A DNA stretch of 64,000 nucleotides, from NCBI RefSeq assembly GCF_003992615.1, contig NZ_RZMY01000017.1, positions 596 to 64,595 on the forward strand, in the 5' to 3' direction. Each line of letters starts with the position of its first letter. The first letter of the stretch is position 1. This document shows, one piece after another, positions 11,056 to 33,723 of the stretch. The notes below the pieces were generated by a model. It had not been told where the DNA came from, did not search any database, and saw nothing but the letters and a program-made list of their open reading frames with translations. The position numbers and the translations under genes are program-made. Source of the stretch: Flagellimonas beolgyonensis. Its GTDB lineage: Bacteria > Bacteroidota > Bacteroidia > Flavobacteriales > Flavobacteriaceae.

Positions 11056-12102
11056 ATGCTAGAAGACAAGAATCCACAACGCACTGCATTGGAACAATTG
11101 GGCGAATTTGGCCTTATTGACCACCTTACCAAAAATTTTGAGTTGAAACAACCGTCCTCCCTGCTTGGTGTAGGCGACGATGCCGCTGTTATGGACTTTA
11201 AGGGCCAACGGACTGTTGTCTCTACCGATATGCTGGTGGAAGGTGTCCACTTCGACCTTTCCTACATGCCGCTCAAACATTTGGGGTATAAATCCATCAT
11301 GGTCAATCTATCGGATATTTATGCCATGAACGCCATAGCCACACAAGTGACCTTGTCCTTGGCTGTTTCCAACCGTTTTCCTTTGGAAGCCCTGGAAGAA
11401 TTTTATGAAGGGGTGGCCTTGGCGTGCAAACTGTACCACGTGGATTTGGTTGGGGGCGATACCACCTCATCCAACAAGGGCATGATCATCAGTGTTACCT
11501 CCATTGGCATGGCCGATGCAAAGGATATCGTTTACCGAAAAGGGGCAAAGCCCAATGATCTTTTAGTGGTTTCCGGTGACGTGGGTGGTGCATATTTGGG
11601 ATTGCAGGTTTTGGAACGGGAAAAGGAAGTTTTCAAGGTAAATCCCAATAACCAGCCCGACCTTTCACCCTACTCCTATATCGTGGAACGTCAATTAAAG
11701 CCAGAATCGAGAAAGGACATTGTCGAATTATTGCAAAAAGTGGAGGTGAAGCCTACCTCCATGATAGACATCAGTGATGGACTTTCTTCTGAAATTATGC
11801 ATTTGTGCAAACGAAGTGATGTGGGTTGTAACCTCTTTGAAGATAAAATTCCATTGGACCCTACGGTAATCTCGACCTGCGAGGAATTTCAAATGGACAG
11901 TACCATGGTGGCCTTAAGTGGAGGTGAAGATTATGAACTGTTGTTTACCATCGATCAGGCAGATTTTCCAAAAATAAAAGGCAACCCCAATTTGACGGTT
12001 ATCGGCCATATGACGGAAAAAAGTGAAGGCGTTCATTTAATAACCCGTGCCAATACCAAAATACCTATAACTGCCCAAGGCTGGAACTCCTTCAAAGCAT
12101 AA
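11056..12102 (+). CDS. thiL: Thiamine-monophosphate kinase ThiL
   Basis: ThiL phosphorylates thiamine monophosphate to the active cofactor thiamine diphosphate. The 348-residue protein has the PurM/ThiL-type ATP- and Mg-binding motifs GVGDDAAVMD (residues 38-47), STDMLVEGVHF (56-66) and VNLSDIYAMN (83-92). A glycine-rich segment SGDVGGAYLG lies in the middle and MIDISDGLSSE in the second half. Length is normal. The gene stands alone, divergent from the LVIVD gene. Its 3' end abuts a structured element that seems to belong to the opposite strand. Confidence 0.96.
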   Translation: MLEDKNPQRTALEQLGEFGLIDHLTKNFELKQPSSLLGVGDDAAVMDFKGQRTVVSTDMLVEGVHFDLSYMPLKHLGYKSIMVNLSDIYAMNAIATQVTLSLAVSNRFPLEALEEFYEGVALACKLYHVDLVGGDTTSSNKGMIISVTSIGMADAKDIVYRKGAKPNDLLVVSGDVGGAYLGLQVLEREKEVFKVNPNNQPDLSPYSYIVERQLKPESRKDIVELLQKVEVKPTSMIDISDGLSSEIMHLCKRSDVGCNLFEDKIPLDPTVISTCEEFQMDSTMVALSGGEDYELLFTIDQADFPKIKGNPNLTVIGHMTEKSEGVHLITRANTKIPITAQGWNSFKA

Positions 12103-12188
12103 AAAAATCCCGAAAATCAAGGGCATCCCTACTCATGGTCTTGGGGCACGTAACCATTAGCAGCAGGCAATTACTTAAGTTTCCGGGA
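12101..12188 (-). ncRNA. Candidate structured small RNA or structured 3' end, followed by a U-tract
   Basis: Read on the minus strand, 12188-12108 folds into a closed structure. P1 pairs 12180-12188 with 12108-12116, then continues 12174-12178 with 12117-12121 after one bulged base. P2 pairs 12162-12167 with 12128-12133. P3 pairs 12153-12157 with 12135-12139 and closes a 13-base loop. Three pairs are G-U on the minus strand but would be A-C mismatches on the plus strand, which indicates the transcribed strand. Seven T residues follow P1 directly, as in an intrinsic terminator. It could be an independent small RNA or the 3' end of the small gene upstream. Identity is unknown to me; the Flavo-1 family is worth testing. 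Confidence 0.55.
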
Positions 12189-12221
12189 TAAGATTTGGGC
12201 CTCTTAAAACCAAAAAAAGGG

Positions 12222-12476
12222 CTATGCCACTTGGTGCACTACCCTACTTTTTCTTTTTTGGTACATTTCTTCCAATGTACTGTTGATTTCTTGCATTTGG
12301 GGGGTTAGGGCCGAAAGTTTGCCGCTAACATCCGTGGTGACTTCTTTTTGGCAATGGATACATTTGTATTCCTTGATGTGTTGGGTCACTTTTTTGGAAA
12401 CCACATAATGGTGACCGAACAAGTTGCAGAAAAAAGCGGAGAATTTGTTACCATGGTGATGGGTAGAAGTTTTCAT
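12222..12476 (-). CDS. Small hypothetical protein with a CxxC zinc-ribbon-like knuckle
   Basis: I do not recognise this 84-residue protein beyond a general likeness to short DUF1660-type zinc-ribbon proteins. It has C17 and the pair H22-H23 in FCNLFGHHYVV, followed by C39 and C42 in EYKCIHCQKE, a plausible metal site. The C-terminus is charged and helical. I start at the ATG at 12476 (MKTSTHHHGNK). An ATG at 12503 in the same frame would add nine residues. The gene stands alone, and the structured RNA candidate begins 33 bases beyond its stop codon. Confidence 0.6.
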   Translation of the reverse strand: MKTSTHHHGNKFSAFFCNLFGHHYVVSKKVTQHIKEYKCIHCQKEVTTDVSGKLSALTPQMQEINSTLEEMYQKRKSRVVHQVA

Positions 12477-12741
12477 AAGCTGGGGCGGTGTTTGGAAAAG
12501 CATTGGAAGCGATTTGGGGAATCGAAAAATGCTGTAACTTGTTAATGGTAATTTTTTGTTATATCGTTATTGTTTAGTTAGACATTTCTATACGAACGCT
12601 TGTTGATAACTTTTTATTTTGCGCGCATCCACTTAAAATTATTTTTTCGATGAAATGCTTCTTTTTCGTTATAAACGCAAAAAAACTCGTTGAATTACAG
12701 TTTTGAAATATACCAATTCGAAAAGAAATTATCAACACCCT

Positions 12742-33022: not shown

Positions 33023-33723
33023 TAGTTTCTAGTTCTAACGGTTCGTTGTTCGATTCGCTTCTCATACTTCTCCCCTTGGAAAATGCGCTGCACAAAAATG
33101 CCCGGGATGTGAATCTCATTGGGGTCAAGACTTCCTGCTGGGAGCAGTTCCTCCACTTCGGCCACGGTAATGGTGGCTGCGCCGCACATACACGGGTTAA
33201 AATTTCGGGCCGTTCCCTTAAATATTAGGTTGCCGGCCTCATCCCCTTTCCAGGCCTTTACGAACGAGAAATCGGCCTTAAATGCAGGCTCCAAAACGTA
33301 CATTTTACCATCGAATTCCCGAGTTTCCTTTCCTTCGGCCACCTCGGTTCCATAGCCTGCCGGGGTATAGAATGCAGGGAATCCAGCTTGGGCCGCCCTG
33401 CATTTTTCTGCCAATGTTCCTTGGGGAGTGAGTTCCACCTCCAACTCGCCACTCAACATTTGGCGTTCGAACTCATCGTTTTCGCCCACGTAGGACGATA
33501 TCATTTTTTTGATCTGGTGCTTTTGCAACAACAATCCCAAACCAAAATCATCCACACCGGCATTGTTGGAGATACACGTAATATCCTTAATACCCAAACG
33601 CACCAGTTCGGCTATTGCATTTTCAGGAATACCACAAAGGCCAAAACCGCCCAACATAAAGGTCATACCATCCTCAACGCCCTGTAGCGCCTGTTGTACA
33701 TTGGCAACTGTTTTCTTGATCAT
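33022..33723 (-). CDS. scoA: 3-oxoacid CoA-transferase subunit A
   Basis: The 233-residue subunit A shows the CoA-binding [15 protein letters not shown] (about residues 22-36) and the [12 protein letters not shown] segment after it. It pairs with subunit B for ketone-body or branched-chain 3-oxoacid use. It is first of the two-gene operon, downstream of the PBP1A terminator, with only a weak promoter match (TAATTTCA) ahead of it. Confidence 0.94.

Follow-up and report, generated by a model that had tools for sequence, protein, structure and literature searches.

A conserved rod-shaped RNA element at the predicted 3' end of a small flavobacterial gene, and its relation to the antisense strand of thiL

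Based on the comparison of genomes across the Flavobacteriaceae, we propose that an 81-nt element on the minus strand of a 64-kb stretch of Flagellimonas beolgyonensis DNA (the window) is, with good probability, the structured 3' end of the transcript of a small gene: a long, rod-shaped intrinsic terminator with a conserved C-rich apical loop (GUGCCCCAA), which probably does more than terminate. At the level of sequence, comparison between genomes shows the strand, the predicted structure, the conservation and the position of this element directly after the small gene. It further shows the relatedness of the element to the antisense strand of thiL, the convergent neighbour, at its C-terminal coding end. 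We thus describe a structured 3'-end RNA without a match in Rfam, whose history inside and outside thiL is its interesting part. The features of the locus are as follows.

11056 to 12102, plus strand: thiL, thiamine-phosphate kinase (TIGR01379), the convergent neighbour
11959 to 12051, plus strand: thiL segment homologous to the place of the antisense element in other genera; element absent here (antisense z +1.08)
12101 to 12107, minus strand: U-tract of seven U (sequence; T-run conserved in the genus)
12108 to 12188, minus strand: rod-shaped structured RNA element, 81 nt (predicted fold, conservation in the genus, covariation)
12108 to 12121, minus strand: closing stem, 3' arm (fold, pair counts)
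12141 to 12149, minus strand: apical loop sequence GUGCCCCAA (fold; GUGCCCCA invariant in 47 distinct sequences of the genus)
12174 to 12188, minus strand: closing stem, 5' arm, 14 pairs with one bulged base (fold, pair counts)
12189 to 12221, minus strand: spacer of 33 nt from the small-gene stop to the element (sequence; without the TAnnTTTG promoter motif)
12222 to 12503, minus strand: small gene of 93 codons (84 aa, 12222-12476, from the conserved start) with one Cys plus CxxC; proposed source of the transcript

An earlier note on this DNA had placed an 81-nt minus-strand fold, directly followed by seven T, between thiL (plus strand, stop codon 12100-12102) and a small minus-strand gene (12222-12503), and both the site and the fold were confirmed. 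The minus strand from 12188 to 12108 with the seven T reaches a minimum free energy of -27.9 kcal/mol (z -2.62 in dinucleotide shuffles, of which 2 of 200 were as good), against -17.3 kcal/mol (z +0.18, likewise in dinucleotide shuffles) for the plus strand. The U-tract (12107-12101) shares two bases with the thiL stop codon. In two details the earlier description needs correction: it counted three G-U pairs, of which the predicted fold has four (12183/12113, 12177/12118, 12164/12131 and 12152/12140), and it called the structure more branched than simple terminators, while the fold is one unbranched rod made of the closing stem, inner helices with internal loops between them, and an 11-nt apical loop that holds GUGCCCCAA. 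As in an intrinsic terminator, a stable stem is directly followed by a U run on the same strand; a simple terminator scan of the window with a loop limit of 8 did not list the element. By energy it ranks only fourth of the 498 windows ending in a T-run in the 64 kb, so the case for it rests on comparison: conservation raises it above chance, and energy alone does not make it unique in the window. The windows that fold better lie near 33403 (plus), 5274 (minus) and 29888 (plus). A repeat family of the genome was considered and rejected, as there is a single full copy; the 13 other matches are fragments of 14-29 nt, 12 of them at the terminator end.

Conservation was examined in 99 genomes: the own genome, 59 of the same genus (Flagellimonas/Allomuricauda (Muricauda), Flavobacteriaceae) and 39 of the same order. 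The element was found in 57 of the 59 other genomes of the genus, the two without it being 83% and 79% complete, and the sole match among the 39 order-level genomes is a 26-nt terminator fragment. After exclusion of one fragment row (G095/L066, 26 nt and unlike the others), the genus alignment holds 58 sequences, 47 of them distinct, aligned from the start of the stem. The loop GTGCCCCA, which includes GUGCCCCA, is invariant in all 47, as are much of the closing stem and the four T that follow it; stem and U-tract are the best-kept part. Two-sided compensatory changes occur at 11 of 25 pairs, a count that none of 500 shuffles reached and that was made on a structure whose inner helices were taken from projected single-sequence folds, and thus chosen with knowledge of these sequences. 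On this given structure 90.9% of the cells pair, and the covariation score is 0.238, versus 0.035-0.089 when the partners are slid. Covariation, on which the earlier note had made its proposal depend, is thus present under shuffles and slides alike. Most of the two-sided changes belong to the inner helices and the apical one, in which pairing holds for about 82% of the cells. The closing stem has them at just 2 of its 14 pairs, the others being changed on one side or unvarying, and RNAalifold alone recovers the closing stem only.

A covariance model (R1) carried the search to 397 genomes of the family at an E-value of 0.01 or less. It matched in 69 of them, at full length in 57, or 56 after a spurious match was dropped (G192/L120; 110 nt, lacking both GCCCC and an adjoining small gene). 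By our count over these 397 genomes, the full-length element is present in the own genus and 34 others. Twelve genomes with R1 matches of 22-36 nt only were also dropped, one of which, G470, proved to carry the element; in the later locus search a stricter threshold removed matches that were short or on the opposite strand. Seven of the 80 loci covered by that later search gave no R1 match (L202, L203, L204, L206, L212, L213, L221). A sample of 148 genomes of the order gave four R1 matches, all in Flavobacteriaceae. Across genera, two-sided changes appear at 18 of 25 pairs (0 of 500 shuffles) among 69 distinct rows, which were fitted to the model in an alignment biased toward the structure. 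The choice of the minus strand, made in the earlier note from the G-U pairs, also agrees with the relatives. Among 77 distinct noncoding copies (47 from the genus, 30 from others) the RNA strand folds to a mean of -26.1 and its complement to -21.2, with mean z of -3.01 and -1.14, respectively, and the RNA strand is the lower one in 67 of the 77 (46 of 47 in the genus, 21 of 30 elsewhere). Comparison across genomes therefore supports a structured minus-strand RNA, or else a structured 3' end there, as had been proposed.

No Rfam family accounts for the element. Rfam 15 at gathering scores gave no match in the whole window, and a search of the site (11900-12400, E up to 10) returned only matches far below threshold. 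Those to U12, SpR20, NsiR1 and sau-5971 are far under their cut-offs and were taken as chance. Flavo-1 (RF01705), which had been suggested as a possible identity, was not among the matches at the site; its best score in the genome, 14.6 bits against a gathering cut-off of 42 bits, lies at another place. 6S-Flavo is a long hairpin-like RNA and in this respect resembles the element, but the genome's member of that family (RF01685; 102.9 bits, gathering cut-off 85 bits) sits on another contig, with none in the window. Flavo-1 shares with the element its occurrence as a structured RNA of Flavobacteriaceae and a similar length (76 model positions); it differs in that its model leaves the element unmatched and in that the element is confined, as a single copy, to one kind of locus. 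In F. psychrophilum, according to a passage of PMC9723704, Flavo-1 hits lie within transcribed regions, in sense or antisense orientation, and often outside such regions. Among the matches listed in our literature searches no publication on the element was present, which does not by itself prove its absence from print.

The small gene accompanies the element closely. Its product has an invariant Cys and a CxxC motif, together with FGHHY and HIKEYKC, and no Pfam or NCBIfam family at cut-off; the nearest recurring family is DUF1660, at 15.6 to 19.8 bits against a cut-off of 21.4. A relative of the small protein is encoded in 265 of the 397 family genomes. Many genomes have two matches, which stand in tandem beside thiL in L265, L267 and L268. 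In other genera 53 of 55 loci have the small gene immediately upstream of the element, the exceptions being the spurious L120 and L085, from a genome (G404) whose other copy, L115, has the small gene. The 68 best small-protein relatives (E at most 4.2e-35, followed by 5.4e-30) cover all 56 genomes with the element. Among the other 12, a smaller search gave R1 matches on the right strand at four loci (L253, L257, L262, L264; E no higher than 0.002), and by eye L256 has a similar hairpin. In seven of the 68 genomes no element match exceeds 16 bits, and in these thiL and the small gene are close together. G178 and G386 carry the element beside the small gene although no thiL was found in about 19 kb downstream.

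At the window locus the element begins 33 nt 3' of the small-gene stop on the same strand, and no TAnnTTTG motif (the promoter consensus as given in a passage of PMC9723704) occurs on the minus strand from 12740 to 12101, hence none was found for either the element or the small gene. This position, the missing motif and the stem with its U-tract make a terminating 3' UTR the most likely reading: the element would be transcribed together with the small gene, and transcription would end at the U-tract. The conserved apical loop suggests that it probably does more than terminate; the loop may confer stability, serve as a binding site or seed, or mark an RNA of about 85 nt that is released from the transcript.

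The stronger form of this proposal, compatible with it, is a trans-acting small RNA of about 85 nt, released or separately made, whose C-rich loop would pair with G-rich target mRNAs. We regard it as possible, if somewhat improbable. A conserved single-stranded stretch, expected for 3'-UTR-derived small RNAs, is present in the form of the loop GTGCCCCA in the 47 distinct genus sequences, where GUGCCCCA is invariant in the absence of any coding constraint. GCCCC occurs in all 77 distinct noncoding copies, those from other genera having been found with a model that scores GCCCC. Such RNAs have been described in Bacteroides thetaiotaomicron, where, according to a part of PMC7366714, they share the terminator of the mRNA; the element resembles them in its 3'-UTR position, shared terminator and size range, and differs in lacking an Rfam family match and in being known here from sequence alone. 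Against a small RNA of this kind stands the lack of the promoter motif between the small gene and the element.

The relation to thiL became apparent in the other genera. We distinguish class I loci, in which the element lies antisense inside the 3' coding end of thiL, from class II loci, in which it lies outside a full-length thiL end, as in the window. Of 73 loci, 25 are class I (at least 16 genera), 39 are class II, and for 9 no thiL end was found in the piece analyzed. A few loci represent the same genome, present in two collections; distinct thiL segments number 23 among the 25 loci and 37 among the 39. Several outer copies retain a likeness to the C-terminus of thiL (49% over aa 299-341, 65% over 304-337, 77% over 299-346). 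Within Flagellimonas/Allomuricauda, tblastn found no thiL remnant in the element, and the link to thiL runs through the R1 family.

The thiL codons at the place of the element were recoded synonymously with pooled usage and the antisense strand was folded. The mean z is -2.14 for class I (n=25; the sense strand folds well too, at -1.68), +0.71 for the coding copies of class II (n=39; sense +0.15) and +0.80 for loci without the element (n=13), a contrast that, like those in codons and residues below, is partly selected because class I was found with a model scoring structure and loop; positional and homologous-gene controls lessen this inflation and do not abolish it. In the merged sets the means are -2.18 (26), +0.66 (42) and +0.83 (13), and z falls below -1 in 23/26, 2/42 and 1/13, respectively. 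Along thiL, ten 93-nt windows are extreme in class I only at the element (-2.28; others +0.40 to -0.52), with +0.96 at the corresponding place and +0.46 to -1.12 elsewhere in class II. Two class II coding copies fold well despite an outer element (L117, z -3.17; L065, -1.13), and three class I loci are weak (L100, -0.35; L087, -0.57; L085, -0.94). Inside thiL, the structure thus exceeds what the protein needs, and where the element is outside, this structure is absent.

The codons and residues follow the same division. Under the loop, Gly is encoded by GGG in 25/26 class I loci, 8/42 of class II and 6/13 without the element; GGG makes up 160 of all 658 Gly codons in class I thiL genes. The codon before it ends in G in 24/26 class I loci (Val, Leu or Met) and in none of the 42 and 13 others, so that the opposite strand reads GCCCC. 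At the closing stem and U-tract, the residue after K is E or K in 24/26 class I loci, and D in 39/42 of class II and 13/13 without the element. A final R-N is found there in 25/26 class I loci and in none of the 42 and 13, and a T-run of five or more follows the stem in 21/26, 7/42 and 4/13. Where the element overlaps thiL it thus goes, on this comparison of sequences, with particular codons and amino acids, and the coding copies of loci with an outer element lack such marks.

These data bear on the view that the element is an ordinary intrinsic terminator, its odd length being the scar of an old thiL 3' fragment with a body and loop devoid of function. We consider this unlikely. It would agree with stem and U-tract being the best-conserved part, with the resemblance of displaced copies to the thiL C-terminus in several genera and with the fourth rank by energy. 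It does not account for a loop that is invariant in noncoding copies, for the covariation of the inner helices, or for the skewed class I loop codons, a skew that is partly due to ascertainment. The element shares with intrinsic (Rho-independent) terminators a stem running directly into a U-tract and a position 3' of a gene that is read from the same strand; it differs as an 81-nt rod with a conserved C-rich loop, which in many relatives lies inside the coding sequence of the convergent gene. For S. aureus terminators an average of about 30 nt is quoted in a passage of PMC7821165.

A cis-antisense regulator of thiL is very improbable. The RNA of a class I locus would be complementary over its whole length to the 3' coding end of thiL, but in class II, the window included, the element lies outside, so that pairing with thiL cannot be the conserved function, and it persists where thiL is not near.

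Tentatively, and with less than even confidence, we propose a functional RNA family born antisense to the 3' coding end of thiL, bending the codons and amino acids of the enzyme to stem, loop and U-tract. In several lineages it would then have been released when thiL was partly duplicated or recombined, and would have lived on as a regulatory RNA in its own right, still with a C-rich loop. The overlapping state would be the older one. From the thiL antisense strand, where it may have arisen, the element would have been displaced repeatedly, through recombination or incomplete duplication at the thiL 3' end, and sometimes with gene insertions. Two-copy genomes are represented by L108 and L216 (Arenibacter), L115 (G404) and L124 (G383). 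In Arenibacter the copies lie 173 nt apart (1501-1589 and 1674-1762 in L108; 5310-5398 and 5483-5571 in L216), and L216 combines a strong outer copy (50.4 bits) with a weak one inside thiL (32.9 bits). The inner Arenibacter copy looks weaker, as if decaying. Both states occur within three genus codes, namely g100 (G173 inside, G383 two copies), g133 (G206 inside, G404 two copies) and g228 (G301 inside, G467 outside), which suggests repeated moves. A thiL tree, built without the overlapped end and excluding L071, identical proteins and partial thiL sequences, mixes the classes (15 changes versus a shuffled mean of 27.9); it is poorly resolved, its well-supported branches force only 2 changes per class, and the supported independent pairs of class I with another state number 2, too few for any significance.

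In L131, L132 and L135-L142 genes are inserted between thiL and the outer copy on the thiL strand, encoding either an alpha/beta hydrolase or an AraC-type regulator together with a DUF2306-like membrane protein. The insert of G383 (L141) lies between near-identical repeats of the thiL 3' end, and the two copies there agree almost fully over about 150 nt. Such insertions in several genera, and the repeats of G383, would fit the idea that mobile gene cassettes integrate at the thiL 3' end, with the element as their attachment site; we give this the least credence, since a scan of 9 insert proteins from 5 loci (the remaining inserts were compared by eye) revealed no integrase, and since neither RNA-strand folding nor a U-tract is necessary for integration. 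In two genomes of the own genus, G001 (L129) and G034 (L130), roughly 200-260 bp of other sequence separate the element from the thiL stop.

The arrangement is reminiscent of overlapping convergent 3' UTRs and excludon-like loci, as treated in a part of PMC7821165, in that the transcript would run antisense into the convergent neighbour. Here the overlap is a defined structure, tied to the codons and residues of that neighbour and kept when outside it. Bacterial 3' UTRs diverge fast even between orthologous mRNAs, according to a passage of the same article; the present case is one structured 3' end kept across dozens of genera while its host sequence is coding in some and noncoding in others. 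Genomes that carry the element inside thiL, in two copies, outside only or not at all provide a natural comparison for the cost of the overlap to the protein and for its release. If birth antisense to thiL and later escape are true, they form a natural series of an overlapping RNA arising in, and leaving, its host gene. The element also adds an RNA candidate to a family with few known regulatory RNAs, beside a widespread uncharacterised protein.

A few copies depart from the loop rule. The clearest exception is G383, in which both copies (L124, L141) read GACC in the loop instead of GCCCC. L256 (G200), which has no R1 match, and L257 (G467) carry diverged outer hairpins by the small gene, with GCCCT instead of GCCCCA.
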